This document shows positions 51,475 through 59,435 of a DNA stretch of 64,000 nucleotides, piece by piece. The notes under the pieces are model-generated. The model was not told the origin of the DNA. It ran no database searches and saw nothing but the letters and a program-made list of their open reading frames with translations. The stretch is from NCBI GenBank assembly GCA_946183145.1, contig CAMGZM010000001.1, forward strand, positions 1 to 64,000, written 5' to 3'. Origin of the DNA: an uncultured Fretibacterium sp. (GTDB taxonomy: Bacteria; Synergistota; Synergistia; Synergistales; Aminobacteriaceae). Made by a program: the position numbers and the translations under genes. Numbering within the stretch: the first letter of the stretch is position 1; each line of letters opens with the position of its first letter.

Positions 51475-51576
51475 AACGTGAAAAAATTTTGCTTGAATAT
51501 AATTTTGGGACATGCCGATAACTTTCTGACATGTATAATATCCGCGTTAATTCCAATATAATGAAAGGTGGTCTCA

Positions 51577-54500
51577 ATGTCCATCCGTAAAATTTTGTCA
51601 TATTCTGCCGCATTCCTCGCAATAATTCTCATTTTTCCGGGAATATGCTTCTCAGAAATCACATCAATATCACAGCTCAACAATCCGCAATACAGAGTCG
51701 GTTCTGACTCCGGCGGGCCAGTTCTCGAAAGAACGAGGGAAAATCTCCCGAACGCTCAAATCTTCAAGTACAACGACTTCCTGAGCCAGTATTTTGCGCT
51801 TCAGTCTGGGAAAATTGACGCTCTCGTAGCAAATGAGTCTGAATTTATCTCGGCCGTGAACAACGGACTCGAAAATGTCAGGATTCTCCCCGGCTATTTA
51901 GGCAAACCAGTACCGACAGCCGCAGGGATTTCGGAACGTTCAGAGATTCCAGGCCTCAAGGAGAAATTCAACGCATTCATAGCGGGGCTTAAGTCTGACG
52001 GAACATTATCGGACATGTACAAACGCTGGGTATACGACAATGATCACAATATGCCGGTGATTGATGTCCCGGAAAAATCAGATATTCACCTCACTATAGC
52101 CACTACAGGAGTCGTAATGCCGTTCAGCTTCTACATCAACAAGGACGTTACAGGCTATGACATTGAGCTTGGACGGAGATTCGCGGCTTATATCGGAGCA
52201 ACTGTTGAGTTCAAGATTTACGGATTCGGAAGCATATTGATGGCTCTCAAAAGCGGGGCTGCTGATATTGCTCTCTCGAATCTTTATGTTACACGTGAAA
52301 CTGAAGAGAGCGTAACTTTCTCCGATATTGTTGTCGATGTAAACTGCATTGTTGCTGTTCATGATGACGGGAAATCGCACGCAGTCCACGCAAAAACTTC
52401 AACAGGAAATTTTGAGGCTTTCAGGGGAAAACGTATCGGAGTTTTTACAGGTTCAGTGCAGTATGAAATGGTGCAGAACTCTATACCAGGCGCGGAAATT
52501 ATGTATTTCGACTCACTTGCGAACATAATCGGCTCTCTTGTAGAAGGAAAAATTGACGCTGCTGCCGTTGACGAGACTATAGCGTCTGAAGCTGAGAAAA
52601 CTAACCGCAGTTTGACGCACATGAATGAGCCTCTCGGTGTTTCTGAGACTGCGTTTCTTTTCCCGAAATCCCCGGCAAATAATCCCCTCGCTGATGAGAT
52701 TAACGAGTATATACGGCGGATAAAATCAGACGGAACACTTGACGAGATCCGCGCAATATGGTTAGGAGATGACGAGAGCAAAAAGATTCTCCCCGATTAC
52801 AGCAATTATCCCGCAACGAACGGAATAATACGAATCGCCGCTGACAATATGACTCCAATATTCTCATACATGAAAGACGGAAAACTCACAGGACACGACA
52901 TTGATATTATCGCCCGTTTCTGCAAGGAGAAAGGTTACAGGCCCGACATAAGCATAATCAATTTCACGGGCGTAATTCCCGCAGTAAGCTCCGGTAAATG
53001 TGATATGGGCATGTGCGGAATCACAATGACACCCGAACGCGCCGAGTCCGTGAGATTCTCTGAGCCTGTATGCGCTCTGAACAGCGTTATGCTCCTCAAA
53101 TCATCAGCGCAGACTCAGCCGTCCCAAAAAGTAGCAACATCACGAACACCAAAATATTCGACTCTCGCACAGCTTGACGGAAAACCGATAGGAGTTCAGA
53201 CGGGTGTTTTTGAGTGGGCCGATTTCGTTCAAAAGACTATGCCGCGTTCGAAGGTTGTTTACTTTAACACTTTTGCAGACATCGCCGCCGCTCTTAAGAC
53301 TCGCAAGATTGAGGCATTCCTCGTTGATGAGCCTATATATAACCTCATGGCCGCAGAAGACAAGAATTTGGCAAGAATTGACGCGAAAATTGACGACACA
53401 TATAACATTGCTTACGGTTTCCCGAAAAACGCAAAGGGCAAAAAGTTATGTGATGAAATGAGCGAGTATATTCGCAAACTCAAAGCAAGCGGTGAACTTG
53501 ACGCAATCATAGCGAAATGGGAAGGAAATAACGAATCCGCAAAGACTCTCCCTGACTATAAGAATTTCCCCGCGCATAATGGTGTTCTCACTATGGCGAC
53601 TGAAGGCGAGTACCCCCCGTTCAACTATTACAGGGGGAAAGAAATCACAGGATTTGAGATTGACCTTGCCGCAAGATTCTGTGAGGCTTACGGTTACGGA
53701 CTTGATGTTACGTCTATGGCTTGGGACGCGATAATCAGCGCAATAGTTTCCGGGAAATTTGACTTTGCCGGGGCTTATCTGGATACTGCTGAAGCTCATA
53801 CGGACAATATATATTTCTCAGAACCTTACGCGCATGGCCGCTCCGTTATGGCGTGCCTAAGAGCAGAAGACTTACACGTTCAGGCCGTCCGCAAAACGAA
53901 TGAGAGAACACAAAAGTATAAGCACCTCTCAGACCTTGACGGAAAACCCATCGGAATGCAGCCGGGTATAATCGACTGGGAGGAATGGGCCGCTGAAAAT
54001 CTCCCTCACTCGAAAATACATTACTACAACACATACCCCGATTTAGTTTCAGCCCTCAAGACCCACAAGATTGAAGGCTTACTTATTGATTCTCCAGTTC
54101 TCGCACTCATGGCCGCCGAGGATAACACACTTGCGTATATTGATGAGCCTGTCGGAAAACCTTTCGGATATTCATTCTTTGCCGCTCAGACAGAAGCAGG
54201 GAAAAAACTTTGTGATGAAATTAGTGAATATATCCGCAAAATCAAATCGAACGGTAAACTTGACGCAATATTATCGAAATGGCAGGGAGCAGACGAATCC
54301 GCAAAAATCCCGCCCGACTTCAAGAGTCTTCCCGCGAAAAAAGGAACACTCACATACGCCGCTGAAGGAAGTTACCCGCCTTTCAACTACTACAAAGGCA
54401 CGGAATTAGCCGGAATTGATATTGATATTGCTGTAGAATTTTGCCGGGCATATGGTTACGGGCTTAATGTTCAGACGATGTTTTTTGACGCTACGATTCC

Positions 54501-56931
54501 TGCAATCAATTCGGGAAAAGTAGATTTTGCAGGGGACTTCACACCGTCAGAAGAGCATCAAGAAGCCGTGTATTTCTCTGAGCCTTATTGTGAAGCGCGT
54601 TCGGTCATGGCCTGCCTGAAAGATGACGTTTCACCCGTTCATGATTTTGACTCTCTTGCGGGAAAAATAATCGGAGTCCAAACTGGCACAACTTGCGCTG
54701 AATTAGTCCCGGAAAAAATCCCGTCAGCAAAATTAGCGTATTATGACTCACTCACTGACGAGCTTACAGCGTTAAAGGCCGGAAAAGTCGAGGCTGTATG
54801 CTGCTCACTTCCCGCCGCAATTTTCGCGGAGAATGAAGACTTACGACTCACACGCATTAATCCTCCGCTGAGAGAAACATACCTTTATCCCATTTTCGCA
54901 AAGACAGAACGAGGGAAAAAACTTTGTGATGAATATTCTTCTTTCGTCAAAACTTTGTGGGATGACGGCACAATTGACGCGCTCAATGCTAAATGGCTCG
55001 GAAAAGATGAGAGCATAAAGACTCTTGACGATTATTCACAGCTCCCGTCCACAAACGGCACTGTGAAAATGGCTGTTGACGCGTCAATGATTCCATTTGC
55101 TTACGTGAGGGATAATAAGATTGTGGGATATGATATTGATCTGGCTGTGAGATTCTGCAAGGCTAAAGGTTACGCGCTTGAGGTTGAGAATATGACATTC
55201 ACGGGCGTAATATCCTCCGTCAAAACAGGAAAATGCGACTTCACGCAGTCAATGAACAAGACAGACGAACGCGCAGAAAATACCCTCTTCACGTCAACAC
55301 CCGCAATAAAATCCGGCAATGTCCTTCTCACGCTCAAAGCAGGAGCTGAACGCACAGTATCAACAGAAATTTACACGGATTTGTCCCAGCTCAACGGGAA
55401 AAAAATCGGTGTCGCTGTAGGTTCTCTTAACGGGCAGTTAGCAAAGGAGAAAATACCAAATGCTGAAATAGTTTACTTCAACTCAAACAGTGATATTCTC
55501 CCGGCGTTGATAGCAGGAAAAATTGACGCTATATCATGCGGGCATTCGACAGCAGTATTCATGATACGCGAGGGGCATAACGTTATGTATCTCCCTCAGC
55601 AGCTCGGAAAAACTTACCGTAAAGCAGCCTTTTCACGCACAGAAAGAGGCCGTAAACTTCGCAGAGAATATTCAGATTTTCTCAAAACTTTATGGGATGA
55701 CGGAACAATAAAGAGTCTCGTTCAGCAATGGATAGACGGTGAAGACGATTCACGGCGGGTACTTGAGGATTACTCCAATCTTCCGCACCCTAACGGCATA
55801 ATCACAATGGCTGTAGATCCGTCCGTAACTCCCTACGATTACATCAAGAACGGAATGATTCTAGGCTACGAGATCGATATAGCTGTGAGATTCTGCAAGG
55901 CTGAAGGCTACGGACTCAAAATTGACGCAATGAGTCATAACGGCGTTTTAGGTTCGCTCGAAACAGGAAAGTGTGATTTCTCGTACGGAATTGAATACAC
56001 TGATGAGCGCGATAAAAGCCTGTTTTTATCCGACACTCCTAACACTGAAAGCTCAAACGTTATTCTCGTCATGAAGCCCGGAGTCGCAAAATCAGCCGGA
56101 AAAACTACAGACGTTACAGCAGATACGAAACACAACTCACCCGTCAATACACCCGCAAATACTTCACGTAAAAGTACACATGAAGATGATGAGCCGTCAT
56201 TCTGGGAAGATGTAGCGTCAAGTTTCAACAAGACATTTATACGCGAGGACAGATGGAGACTCTTTTCTGAAGGAATAATGAACACGATGATTATCACAGT
56301 GTCGTCTATATTATGCGGAATGCTCTTAGGGTTTACGGCGTTCATGTTCTGCCGTACTGGTAGCGTAATTGCAAACGCAATCACAAAATTTTCTGTGTGG
56401 CTCATAAAGGGGACTCCGATTGTCGTGCTGTTAATGATTCTGTATTACATCATATTCGGCCGTGTGAACATCAGCGGAATAATCGTATCAATTATCGCGT
56501 TCACATTAACATTCGGGACATCTGTATACAGAATGCTTACGTTTGGGACTGGGGCGGTTGACAGGGGGCAGACTGAAGCGGCTTATGCTTTGGGCTTTAC
56601 GGACATGCAGACGTTCTTCACGGTGATACTTCCGCAGGCGGCTTTGCACTTCATGCCGTCATTCAAGGAAGAAGTTACGATGCTCATCAAATCGACATCA
56701 GTTGTGGGATATATAGCGGTGCAGGACTTGACGAAAATGGGCGACATTGTGAGAAGCAGAACATACGAGGCATTTTTCCCGCTTATAGCAGTTGCGGTGA
56801 TATATTTCGTCCTCGCTGGGATTCTGAATATCATCGTCAACATCATTCACACGAGAATTACGCCGTCAAAGAGAAAGCCTGAAGACATTTTGCGCGGTAT
56901 CGACATAAGGAGGAGTGAAAATCATGATTAG
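51577..56931 (+). CDS. Amino-acid ABC permease fused to a permuted array of solute-binding domains
   Basis: 1784 residues from ATG 51577 after GAAAGGTGG. Signal/anchor MSIRKILSYSAAFLAIILIF. Residues about 28-158 are only lobe 2 of an SBP_bac_3 domain. Five complete domains follow at about 168-412, 413-667, 668-922, 923-1162 and 1163-1407, each starting like LTMATEGEYPPFNYYRGKE and ending at a DES.K.L.DY..LP..NG linker. A lone lobe 1 follows at about 1408-1507. After a linker comes a HisM/GlnP-type permease (about 1558-1761) with GIMNTMIITV, WLIKGTPIVVLL, and the EAA-loop QTEAAYALGFTDMQTFFTVILP. It should take up amino acids or related solutes. The ATPase gene overlaps its end. Known fusions such as GlnPQ carry one or two binding domains. 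Confidence 0.9.
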   Translation: MSIRKILSYSAAFLAIILIFPGICFSEITSISQLNNPQYRVGSDSGGPVLERTRENLPNAQIFKYNDFLSQYFALQSGKIDALVANESEFISAVNNGLENVRILPGYLGKPVPTAAGISERSEIPGLKEKFNAFIAGLKSDGTLSDMYKRWVYDNDHNMPVIDVPEKSDIHLTIATTGVVMPFSFYINKDVTGYDIELGRRFAAYIGATVEFKIYGFGSILMALKSGAADIALSNLYVTRETEESVTFSDIVVDVNCIVAVHDDGKSHAVHAKTSTGNFEAFRGKRIGVFTGSVQYEMVQNSIPGAEIMYFDSLANIIGSLVEGKIDAAAVDETIASEAEKTNRSLTHMNEPLGVSETAFLFPKSPANNPLADEINEYIRRIKSDGTLDEIRAIWLGDDESKKILPDYSNYPATNGIIRIAADNMTPIFSYMKDGKLTGHDIDIIARFCKEKGYRPDISIINFTGVIPAVSSGKCDMGMCGITMTPERAESVRFSEPVCALNSVMLLKSSAQTQPSQKVATSRTPKYSTLAQLDGKPIGVQTGVFEWADFVQKTMPRSKVVYFNTFADIAAALKTRKIEAFLVDEPIYNLMAAEDKNLARIDAKIDDTYNIAYGFPKNAKGKKLCDEMSEYIRKLKASGELDAIIAKWEGNNESAKTLPDYKNFPAHNGVLTMATEGEYPPFNYYRGKEITGFEIDLAARFCEAYGYGLDVTSMAWDAIISAIVSGKFDFAGAYLDTAEAHTDNIYFSEPYAHGRSVMACLRAEDLHVQAVRKTNERTQKYKHLSDLDGKPIGMQPGIIDWEEWAAENLPHSKIHYYNTYPDLVSALKTHKIEGLLIDSPVLALMAAEDNTLAYIDEPVGKPFGYSFFAAQTEAGKKLCDEISEYIRKIKSNGKLDAILSKWQGADESAKIPPDFKSLPAKKGTLTYAAEGSYPPFNYYKGTELAGIDIDIAVEFCRAYGYGLNVQTMFFDATIPAINSGKVDFAGDFTPSEEHQEAVYFSEPYCEARSVMACLKDDVSPVHDFDSLAGKIIGVQTGTTCAELVPEKIPSAKLAYYDSLTDELTALKAGKVEAVCCSLPAAIFAENEDLRLTRINPPLRETYLYPIFAKTERGKKLCDEYSSFVKTLWDDGTIDALNAKWLGKDESIKTLDDYSQLPSTNGTVKMAVDASMIPFAYVRDNKIVGYDIDLAVRFCKAKGYALEVENMTFTGVISSVKTGKCDFTQSMNKTDERAENTLFTSTPAIKSGNVLLTLKAGAERTVSTEIYTDLSQLNGKKIGVAVGSLNGQLAKEKIPNAEIVYFNSNSDILPALIAGKIDAISCGHSTAVFMIREGHNVMYLPQQLGKTYRKAAFSRTERGRKLRREYSDFLKTLWDDGTIKSLVQQWIDGEDDSRRVLEDYSNLPHPNGIITMAVDPSVTPYDYIKNGMILGYEIDIAVRFCKAEGYGLKIDAMSHNGVLGSLETGKCDFSYGIEYTDERDKSLFLSDTPNTESSNVILVMKPGVAKSAGKTTDVTADTKHNSPVNTPANTSRKSTHEDDEPSFWEDVASSFNKTFIREDRWRLFSEGIMNTMIITVSSILCGMLLGFTAFMFCRTGSVIANAITKFSVWLIKGTPIVVLLMILYYIIFGRVNISGIIVSIIAFTLTFGTSVYRMLTFGTGAVDRGQTEAAYALGFTDMQTFFTVILPQAALHFMPSFKEEVTMLIKSTSVVGYIAVQDLTKMGDIVRSRTYEAFFPLIAVAVIYFVLAGILNIIVNIIHTRITPSKRKPEDILRGIDIRRSENHD

Positions 56932-58000
56932 GCTTGAGCATGTGAGGAAAGTTTATCCGAATGTAACGCCGCTTTCAGATGTGAACGCTGAAATTAACGC
57001 CGGTGATGTGATTTCGGTGATAGGGCCTTCAGGTACGGGGAAATCAACTCTCCTCCGCTGCATAAATCTTCTTGAGCGTCCTGACGGGGGAAAAATATAT
57101 TTCGGCGATGAGGAAATCACGAGTCCAAAGTGCAACATCTACAAGATACGTCAGAAAATGGGAATGGTGTTCCAGCAGTTTAACCTTTTCGGGAATCTTA
57201 CTGTCATCGAAAACATTATGCTTGCTCCCGTTAAGCTCAAAGGCGAGTCCCGTCAGTCAGCATACGAGAACGGCATGAAGTTTCTGCGGATGGTAGGACT
57301 TCCCGAAAAATACCTCAATTACCCCGATGAATTATCCGGCGGACAAAAGCAGCGAATCGCAATCGCTCGCGCCCTTGCCATGAATCCCGATGTGATTCTC
57401 CTCGATGAGCCTACGAGCGCGTTAGATCCCACGATGGTCGGTGAAGTTCAAGCCGTAATACGTGAGCTTGCGCGTTCGGGTAAAACGATGATGATTGTTA
57501 CGCATGAGATGAATTTTGCCCGCGCAATTTGCAGCAGAGTCTTCTACCTTGACGACGGAGGAATATATGAGGAAGGAACGCCGCAGGAAATTTTCACGAG
57601 GCCGAAACGCCAAAAGACACGGAGATTCATACAGCGTCTTCATGTTGTCGAGTTCAATGTGAAGGACGGAAGGTTTGATTTCCCCGGTGCTGTGTCTGCG
57701 GTTGATACTTTCTGCCAGAAGAATATGATTGGCGGGAAACAGTCGATGAAACTTCAGCTTGTTTTCGAGGAGCTTACGCAGGAAATTTTATCCGGCGTGA
57801 AAAACATTAACGCGGTAATCGAACATTCAGAAGAGAGCGGAGAAATTATGCTTGACGTGAAATATGACGGGCCATTGATGAATCCTTCTGAGGGTGATGA
57901 AGTTTCGTATTCATTGCTTAAAGCTGAGTCATCTGATATTCAGTACATGGCCGGAGAGTCTGAGAACTTCGCGAACAGAGTCAAGATATTCATACGGTAA
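56924..58000 (+). CDS. Polar amino-acid ABC ATPase with extra C-terminal GHKL/RsbW-like domain
   Basis: 358 residues from ATG 56924, overlapping the permease stop and 9 bases after AAGGAGGAG. The first 240 residues are a standard GlnQ/HisP ATPase: GPSGTGKST at 34-42, LSGGQKQRIAIARAL near 138, VILLDEPTSALDP near 158, IVTHEMNFA near 195. The usual protein ends there. About 110 further residues include KLQLVFEELTQEILSG near 285, like the N-box of RsbW/GHKL anti-sigma kinases (FEE..qEil), and a final beta segment. The domain may be regulatory; whether it binds ATP is not clear because the G-boxes are weak. Co-transcribed with the permease. Confidence 0.85.
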   Translation: MIRLEHVRKVYPNVTPLSDVNAEINAGDVISVIGPSGTGKSTLLRCINLLERPDGGKIYFGDEEITSPKCNIYKIRQKMGMVFQQFNLFGNLTVIENIMLAPVKLKGESRQSAYENGMKFLRMVGLPEKYLNYPDELSGGQKQRIAIARALAMNPDVILLDEPTSALDPTMVGEVQAVIRELARSGKTMMIVTHEMNFARAICSRVFYLDDGGIYEEGTPQEIFTRPKRQKTRRFIQRLHVVEFNVKDGRFDFPGAVSAVDTFCQKNMIGGKQSMKLQLVFEELTQEILSGVKNINAVIEHSEESGEIMLDVKYDGPLMNPSEGDEVSYSLLKAESSDIQYMAGESENFANRVKIFIR

Positions 58001-58053: not shown

Positions 58054-58182
58054 CTCTCACTCAACATCTTTCAAAGCAAACTCCCTCGCATTTAATGATT
58101 TATTTGTTCATGATCTAGCGCTATAATTACAACTTTCAATGATGAAGGCCGCTAAAAACTTTTCATGAGAGGAGTCCTAGTT

Positions 58183-59435
58183 ATGAACAGTCCGAGCGAA
58201 AAATACAAAGAGGATATAACCATCAGGATCATAAAAGCTCTCGAAAAAGGTACAGCACCCTGGCAAAAACCATGGGCAGATTCTTCACCCCGCAACGCCG
58301 TAACAGGCAATCAATATCACGGCTTCAACGCAATAATTCTCTCAGTAATCGGAAATGAGCTCAGCGAAAACTGCGACTCAAGATGGGCAACTATCAATCA
58401 GGCAGCGTCAAAAGGCTGGACAATAAAAGACGGAGCGAGGCCGACAAAAATATTCGTGGTGATTCCCCCTGACGACAAAAGAATAGGAGCAACAATCAAG
58501 AGCAGAAAAAGAACGTTCCGAAAAACATTTGAGTTATTCCACGCCTCACAGATAAACGGGATTAAGAATTTGCCGAAACGCAAAAACAATCCAGTAATGA
58601 ACAATGAAATGATAGAGAGGATAATATTCAACTCAAGCGCGAGAATCTTAGAGGGAGGAAGTAAACATCCCCACACCTAAAGTCGGGGGCTTTTGGTGAA
58701 GTTTGGTATACGGCCTAACGTCTGGACACGCATATTACCGCTCCAGAATACCCTTATTCGCCGGGGCTGGTTTACTTCAGCCTCTATACGGTAGAACCTT
58801 AAAAGCTCACCCGCTTACTTTGCTTTATGTTTACTCCTCCGCCGCTATGTTTTTGGCAATTTTTATGCAAATATCGCAAAGGCTACATGCCAGCCTAGAA
58901 CGGCTCTAAGACCGTTGTGTATTTATCCGTCCCTTACAGAACGCCCATATTGCTATGTATTTGTATTTTAGGAAAGAAAAGGGAAAAAGTAAAGTAAATT
59001 AGCGCACTTCCTCCCCATAGCTAAAGCAAGGGTTATCCGTGCGGTGTTTTTGATGAGGCTTTCTATTCGCCGCGCGGTGATGTAATCCGTATGCCGTTCA
59101 GGAAATTTTTTGACGACACAGAGAGCTATTACTCGACACTTCTTCATGAGTTAGTTCACTGGACAGGACACAGCTCAAGGCTTGAGAGATTCTTTTCGTG
59201 GACGACAGGCACAGAGGATTACGCCCGGGAAGAACTCACAGCGGAATTAGCATCACTAATGCTTACGGTTGAAGCGGGAATATCATTGACGGAAAAACAT
59301 TTTGCGAGTCATTCTGCGTACGTCAAATCGTGGATTTCTCTGCTTAAATCAGACCATAACGCAATCTTCAATGCCGAGAAAGACGCAAAGAAAGCTGTGA
59401 ACTTCATACTTTCGTTCCTTGATGACAGACAATAA
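58183..59435 (+). pseudogene. ardC-like antirestriction / zincin gene interrupted by an insertion
   Basis: The N-terminal ArdC domain (58183 to about 58665; EKYKEDITIRIIKALEKGTAPWQKPW and NAVTGNQYHGFNAIIL) binds single-stranded DNA in this family. The C-terminal metallopeptidase-like domain resumes at about 59043 (DEAFYSPRGDVIRMPFR) with the zincin motif HELVHWTGHSSRLER and a downstream glutamate (AREELTAELASLML). About 375 bases of IS605-like sequence separate them. The start ATG has AGAGGAG upstream. ArdC proteins protect incoming DNA from restriction and occur on plasmids and ICEs. The break is in the middle of the gene, so it is probably inactive. Confidence 0.85.
58667..59042 (-). mobile_element. 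Non-autonomous IS605-like insertion inside ardC
   Basis: Starts with GTAAAC and a hairpin CCCC-ACACCTAAAGT-CGGGGG (58670-58688), which read on the minus strand looks like an IS605 right end (CCCCCGACTTTAGG..GGGG). A second hairpin-like part is around CTAGAACGGCTCTAAGACCG (58895-58914). The other end lies near 59015-59042. No transposase frame; the 68-codon frame here is not a gene. Its ends differ from those of the 13 kb and 25 kb elements, so it is a second family. Confidence 0.65.

Follow-up and report, generated by a model that had tools for sequence, protein, structure and literature searches.

The gene at positions 51577 to 56931 of the window, by which we mean the whole 64,000-nucleotide stretch of DNA analysed here from an uncultured Fretibacterium sp., very probably encodes six complete, circularly permuted SBP_bac_3 domains, each consisting of lobe 2, a C-tail and lobe 1 with nothing left over, fused to the permease of an ABC amino-acid importer. 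The original prediction had divided the same array into five complete domains and two isolated halves; where the divisions fall depends on the register chosen, and the data speak for six units that each run from lobe 2 to lobe 1.

Layout of the array gene and its neighbours

The open frame extends from 51568 to 56931 on the + strand (1787 codons, or residues), and its likely start is the ATG at 51577, matching the coordinate first proposed. A Shine-Dalgarno-like AAAGGTGG lies close 5' of this ATG, and the hydrophobic N-terminus that follows reads as a putative signal peptide, MSIRKILSYSAAFLAIILIFPGICFS (51577..51654, +). Pfam finds six SBP_bac_3 (PF00497) stretches in the protein (total E=1.2e-143, 472 bits) and, over residues 1585-1764, a single BPD_transp_1 domain, in agreement with the predicted fusion of a multi-domain SBP_bac_3 array to a HisM-type permease. 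Both lobes are matched above the curated cut-off, and the profile matches of PDB chains to the permuted unit likewise span both lobes. Marked lobe by lobe, the protein reads 2-1-2-1-2-1-2-1-2-1-2-1-permease, and the array does open with lobe 2 and close with lobe 1 before the permease, as had been noticed earlier.

The six permuted units, U0 to U5, all lie on the + strand. The first, U0 (51658..52374), with lobe 2 at 51658-52083 and lobe 1 at 52084-52368, is the most divergent unit of the array and clusters with the first units of arrays from other phyla. It is followed by U1 (52408..53115), also lobe 2 then lobe 1, by the sister units U2 (53155..53871) and U3 (53917..54633), and by a second pair of sisters, U4 (54637..55350) and U5 (55372..56088). 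A linker at 56089..56184 (+), probably flexible, with an AlphaFold2 (AF2) pLDDT <50 over most of its length, leads to the HisM/GlnP-type permease domain (56185..56928, +), for which chains C/D of 4yms are the best Foldseek match (TMt 0.78-0.79).

The frame of the importer ATPase (56915..58000, +) overlaps the 3' end of the array gene, and its product is GlnQ/TcyN-like over residues 4-242 and carries a C-terminal extension of ~120 aa. Such an extension is seen in several lineages on ATPases partnered with permuted receptors (window 56915-58000; L030 10418-11800; L214, L221, L231, L232, L239, L242); two members match HATPase_c_2 (GHKL, RsbW-like) weakly (E=0.008 and 0.06), and the extension may be a regulatory, anti-sigma-like domain. 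Further downstream (window 58165-59435), a zincin-like MPTase-PolyVal ORF (59091-59435) follows an ArdC N-terminal domain (58165-58680); the two are separate but resemble one ArdC-type gene split in two.

Register of the binding domains

Two registers can be laid over an alternating series of lobes. In the one proposed originally, five canonical domains each combine a lobe 1 with the lobe 2 that follows it, and the two end halves, lobe 2 at the start and lobe 1 at the finish, dock as a sixth, closing the array as a ring; the canonical order is indeed present between neighbours, and every lobe could pair in this way. The co-divergence of the lobes follows the other register. Inside an array, lobe 2 identities are correlated with the identities of the lobe 1 that comes after (r=0.84) far more closely than lobe 1 identities are with those of the lobe 2 that comes after (r=0.35), and nearest neighbours agree in 56/103 comparisons in the first case as against 13/76 in the second. 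When the relatedness of lobe 1 and of lobe 2 is examined separately, as had been suggested, U2/U3 (49% and 59%) and U4/U5 (45% and 47%) are the closest pairs of the window in both lobes, and the tree recovers both as sisters (SH-aLRT 100, 98). Duplication is thus in register with the unit of lobe 2 and lobe 1, which argues against growth by out-of-register recombination, the other route that had been envisaged. Such co-divergence shows what was duplicated and inherited as one piece; as to what folds as one piece, it is strong but not conclusive evidence.

The junctions between lobes point in the same direction. The length of the lobe 2-to-lobe 1 junction has a standard deviation of 1.1 residues in near and distant arrays alike, whereas that of the lobe 1-to-lobe 2 junction varies with standard deviations of 6.0 and 7.2 residues over a range of 0-45, unlike a hinge; anchor-to-anchor distances show the same trend (interquartile ranges of 31-33 and 34-43, respectively). 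A tight junction is expected inside a domain and a loose linker between domains, and the lobe 2-to-lobe 1 junction would accordingly fit a link within a domain.

The permuted order also stands without neighbours. In a PF00497 scan of the source genome, several single genes of 260-310 aa match the end of the profile first and its start second, with a layout of signal peptide, lobe 2, C-terminal helices, linker, lobe 1 and stop. One of them, P0002 (265 aa, C9:59009-59803), is a free-standing permuted binding protein in an ordinary operon of its own with a permease and an ATPase; its residues 166-262 align to residues 10-107 of the AncQR chain (4zv1) and its residues 22-144 to 107-230, and it is, judged from this alignment, a circular permutation of a binding protein cut at the hinge. 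Homologues collinear over the full length, with the lobe order checked, occur in almost every genome of the genus and also in four other genera of its family. Since free-standing permuted proteins are widespread in the lineage, lobe 2-lobe 1 is the natural unit there, which gives six whole units, U0-U5, in the window array. The source genome additionally holds ten genes of a divergent family of permuted binding proteins of ~280 aa with a VAVTGDLPPVDY motif. Loci of this family include G000 C1:183943-187476 (L030 5944-9477), where four such genes stand in tandem and are followed by permease and ATPase genes, as well as L031 4625-5458, L032 5933-6760, L034 7259-8092 and L035 (three genes); the permuted SBP_bac_3 gene at L034 7259-8092 lies directly 3' of a ribose-type permease gene (RbsC-like, by eye), an unusual partner.

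Fusions of a single unit, running lobe 2-lobe 1-permease, are found in the genus (L091, 535 aa; L093, 477 aa), in other Synergistota (L166, L167, L168) and in other phyla. Among fusions with an intact 5' end and lobe 2 in first place, the number of lobe 1 copies equals that of lobe 2 in 106/106, a count in which near-identical genomes under two names may appear twice. These fusions hold one (30), two (39), three (17), four (8), five (3), six (5), seven (1), eight (2) or twelve (1) units, and the query of the genome-contig search was itself in permuted order, so that fusion frequencies there are not an unbiased sample. The lobe models called the canonical 1-2 order in 25 canonical proteins and in four canonical 1-2-permease fusions of another permease type, and the permuted result is therefore not forced by the method. 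The longest member seen, L074 1849-11604 (G010), has 3252 aa with twelve permuted units and a permease.

Structure prediction is consistent with this register. U1 alone, modelled by AF2 with 98 aligned units, is predicted as one rigid, compact bilobed domain (pLDDT 95.7, pTM 0.89). None of the top 50 Foldseek matches of this model reaches a TM of 0.5, and PDB chains of cluster F match the permuted unit by sequence with E down to 1e-64, their lobes in swapped order; the low TM despite such strong sequence matches is as expected when a sequential aligner meets a permutation. In an AF2 model of U4-U5-permease, a construct with the topology of the originally described array (lobe 2 first, lobe 1 last), pLDDT is about 90 at the lobe 2-to-lobe 1 junctions and falls to 76-80 where lobe 1 passes into the next lobe 2. 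The superposition of canonical cluster F structures on this model is poor (TMt about 0.35, rmsd 13-15 A), and the canonical pair is therefore not formed in the predicted two-unit structure. From AF2 confidence, pTM and the behaviour of Foldseek, we infer that the lobes pair within the permuted unit. Ring closure would moreover have to span about 3000 residues in the 12-unit members. Taken with lobe co-divergence, junction lengths, unit counts and free-standing proteins, the models leave a ring of canonical domains very improbable.

Exchanged pairing, in which lobes trade partners between adjacent units or between the two chains of a permease dimer, appears equally improbable, although contacts across chains or with lobes farther along the array are conceivable. 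Element swapping is known in the cluster F family from the dimeric T. maritima ArgBP, and adjacent units of the array are chemically similar; against an exchange stand the strong covariation within units and the prediction of the single unit U1 as one compact domain.

Distribution and origin of the permuted units

The architecture was sought in related genomes, a check put forward with the original prediction, and was found in the genus, in other Synergistota and in about ten phyla. The array permease is present in about 30/43 genomes of the genus, and same-genus genomes carry collinear homologues with 61-77% identity over most of the array. Among 80 relatives from a scan of named genomes, all permease fusions have the form (2-1)n-permease, one of them cut by a contig end. 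The phyla are Bacillota, Spirochaetota, Fibrobacterota, Bacteroidota, Chloroflexota, Pseudomonadota, Thermodesulfobacteriota, Lentisphaerota and Actinomycetota, assigned by record title, of which single ones may be wrong, many records being MAGs. The same layout occurs in the isolates Acetobacterium dehalogenans, A. tundrae and Oligosphaera ethanolica and in the complete chromosome of 'Ca. Formimonas warabiya'. By sequence comparison, permuted-array fusions of 1-12 units thus recur across about ten phyla. In a plasmid collection, matches had <36% identity to binding proteins that are ordinary by annotation. In several relatives, the permuted units and permease are followed by ~380 aa in the same chain (L214, L221, L231, L232, L239 and L242, of about 1150 aa, as well as L225 and L169); in L214, L221, L225, L231, L232, L239 and L242 this tail is an ABC ATPase with the extension, which places a whole importer in one polypeptide.

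First units of the U0 type from arrays of several phyla group in the tree (98*), and the distinct first unit is therefore old. In a quick tree, the free-standing permuted proteins of Synergistota stand apart from the array units, and the AU test does not reject a single clade (p=0.38); a single origin of all permuted binding proteins is undecided on these trees.

Duplication followed by deletion is a textbook route to circular permutation. The GlnP tandem (6h30) aligns with the permuted unit collinearly, but solely over the stretch formed by lobe 2 of SBD1 and the lobe 1 of SBD2. A GlnP-like tandem that underwent duplication-deletion is a plausible ancient source of the permuted order: without lobe 1 at its start and lobe 2 at its end, such a tandem would be a permuted unit directly. 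The same collinearity could be taken to favour out-of-register recombination in a canonical array that left two non-functional half domains. This explanation is still less probable than those based on a ring or on exchanged lobes, since the order with lobe 2 first and lobe 1 last is kept in all 106 members, one-unit members included, across about ten phyla. The idea that the halves are recent leftovers is contradicted for the present-day array by the equal lobe counts.

An assembly or gene-call artefact, named at the outset as a case that would undo the reading and suggested by the proneness of tandem repeats to misassembly and by differing unit numbers among MAG contigs, is hardly credible, since the layout recurs in same-genus genomes, isolates and one complete chromosome, and collapse or duplication by an assembler is unlikely for units that differ by 40-80% in sequence.

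Ligand residues, proposed mechanism and known systems

The clamp Arg of lobe 1 (TxER motif) is present in 94/98 units across phyla and the clamp Asp of lobe 2 in 64/98. At these two positions U1 has Arg/Asp and is the only window unit with both; U2 and U3 have His/Asp, with His replacing the lobe-1 Arg, U4 has Arg/Ser and U5 Arg/Gly, with the lobe-2 Asp replaced, and U0 has Thr/Asn. These residues bear out the earlier observation that the units differ on the ligand side. U1 is the best candidate among them for an ordinary amino-acid ligand; U0 and U2-U5 probably bind different or modified compounds or act as spacers. Since only U1 keeps both clamp residues, some of the units may have no affinity for amino acids, or for any ligand. 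Amino acids are the probable ligands of the importer, and the passage of several substrates through one pore, as first proposed, is a plausible hypothesis.

In the mechanism that we propose, the gene product would be the receptor-permease subunit of an ABC amino-acid importer. In each unit, the chain would enter at the hinge, build lobe 2, return to lobe 1 for its C-terminal helices and, after a conserved linker of ~20 residues, complete the remainder of lobe 1; variable linkers would join the end of lobe 1 to lobe 2 of the next unit, and a flexible linker would tether the last domain, U5, to the permease. As the operon holds a single permease, a homodimer is likely for this Type I importer, which would give twelve receptors per transporter, powered by the ATPase encoded in the overlapping downstream gene. 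Each domain would close on its own ligand and pass it on to the one pore that all share, in the manner of GlnPQ. Because the permutation places both ends of a domain at the hinge, neighbours would be joined hinge to hinge and their closing could be coupled. It is conceivable, though on balance doubtful, that the closing of one receptor is felt by the next, and that such arrays form a large multi-phylum class of coupled multi-ligand collectors, not independent beads, with 1-12 receptors per chain and up to 24 per homodimer.

The closest known architecture is GlnPQ of Lactococcus lactis, with tandem receptors fused to the permease (PMC8025302, PDB 6h30). Like the window array, GlnPQ combines SBP_bac_3-type tandem receptors on a GlnP-type permease with a GlnQ-like ATPase, and its receptors differ in specificity and share one common pore. 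The window locus likewise has its receptors N-terminal to a permease of HisM/GlnP type and a gene for a GlnQ-like ATPase, but where GlnPQ-type systems have one or two receptors in canonical order (two SBDs in GlnP), the window array has six, each circularly permuted. A naturally permuted importer receptor that retains the bilobed fold, as the permuted unit is predicted to do, is TpMglB-2 (Tp0684), a glucose-binding protein proposed as 'Type Ic / Cluster Bc' (PMC4990184). TpMglB-2 is a single sugar-binding lipoprotein of Type I, cluster B fold, in which N-lobe strands were shifted to the C-terminus and a fourth crossover was added, whereas the window units belong to cluster F, are cut at the hinge with reversal of the whole-lobe order and are fused to a permease; matching PF00497 and cluster F structures, they are similar to Cluster Bc in principle and fall outside it.

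The cluster F receptors AncQR (4zv1), GlnH (1ggg) and T. maritima ArgBP fully cover the permuted unit by sequence, and residues 137-233 of the unit fall on AncQR 7-104 and residues 2-122 on AncQR 111-233. Canonical cluster F proteins run lobe 1, lobe 2 and then the C-terminal helices of lobe 1; the permuted unit runs lobe 2, C-tail, lobe 1, with the lobe order reversed and new termini at the hinge. The Venus-flytrap sensors BvgS/EvgS resemble the array in carrying tandem bilobed domains on a membrane protein, but their domains have the canonical lobe order and are fused to a sensor kinase, the window array to a permease; their structures superpose poorly on the U4-U5-permease model (TMt 0.24-0.25).

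A permuted cluster F (SBP_bac_3-type) protein was not found in the open-access full-text literature on circular permutation and on tandem or fused receptors (subscription papers were outside the search), and no permuted cluster F structure was among the best-matching chains of a PDB sequence search. Similarly, the open-access literature yielded nothing on Synergistes amino-acid transporters and nothing relevant on BvgS and permutation. What appears new against this literature is the hinge-permuted cluster F receptor in permease-fused arrays; permutation was already known in TpMglB-2 and tandem fusion in GlnPQ.

The lobe order of cluster F is usually taken as fixed, and a widespread natural class of hinge-permuted receptors means that the fold tolerates reversal of whole lobes. 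Annotation tools name such proteins plain SBP_bac_3 repeats and so mask the permutation, which matters for structural and ligand work, where constructs designed in the canonical register would fuse halves of two different receptors. The permuted units are ready-made receptors with termini at the hinge and are useful for sensors, and the series from one to twelve units is a natural experiment in the number of receptors that one ABC pore can use.
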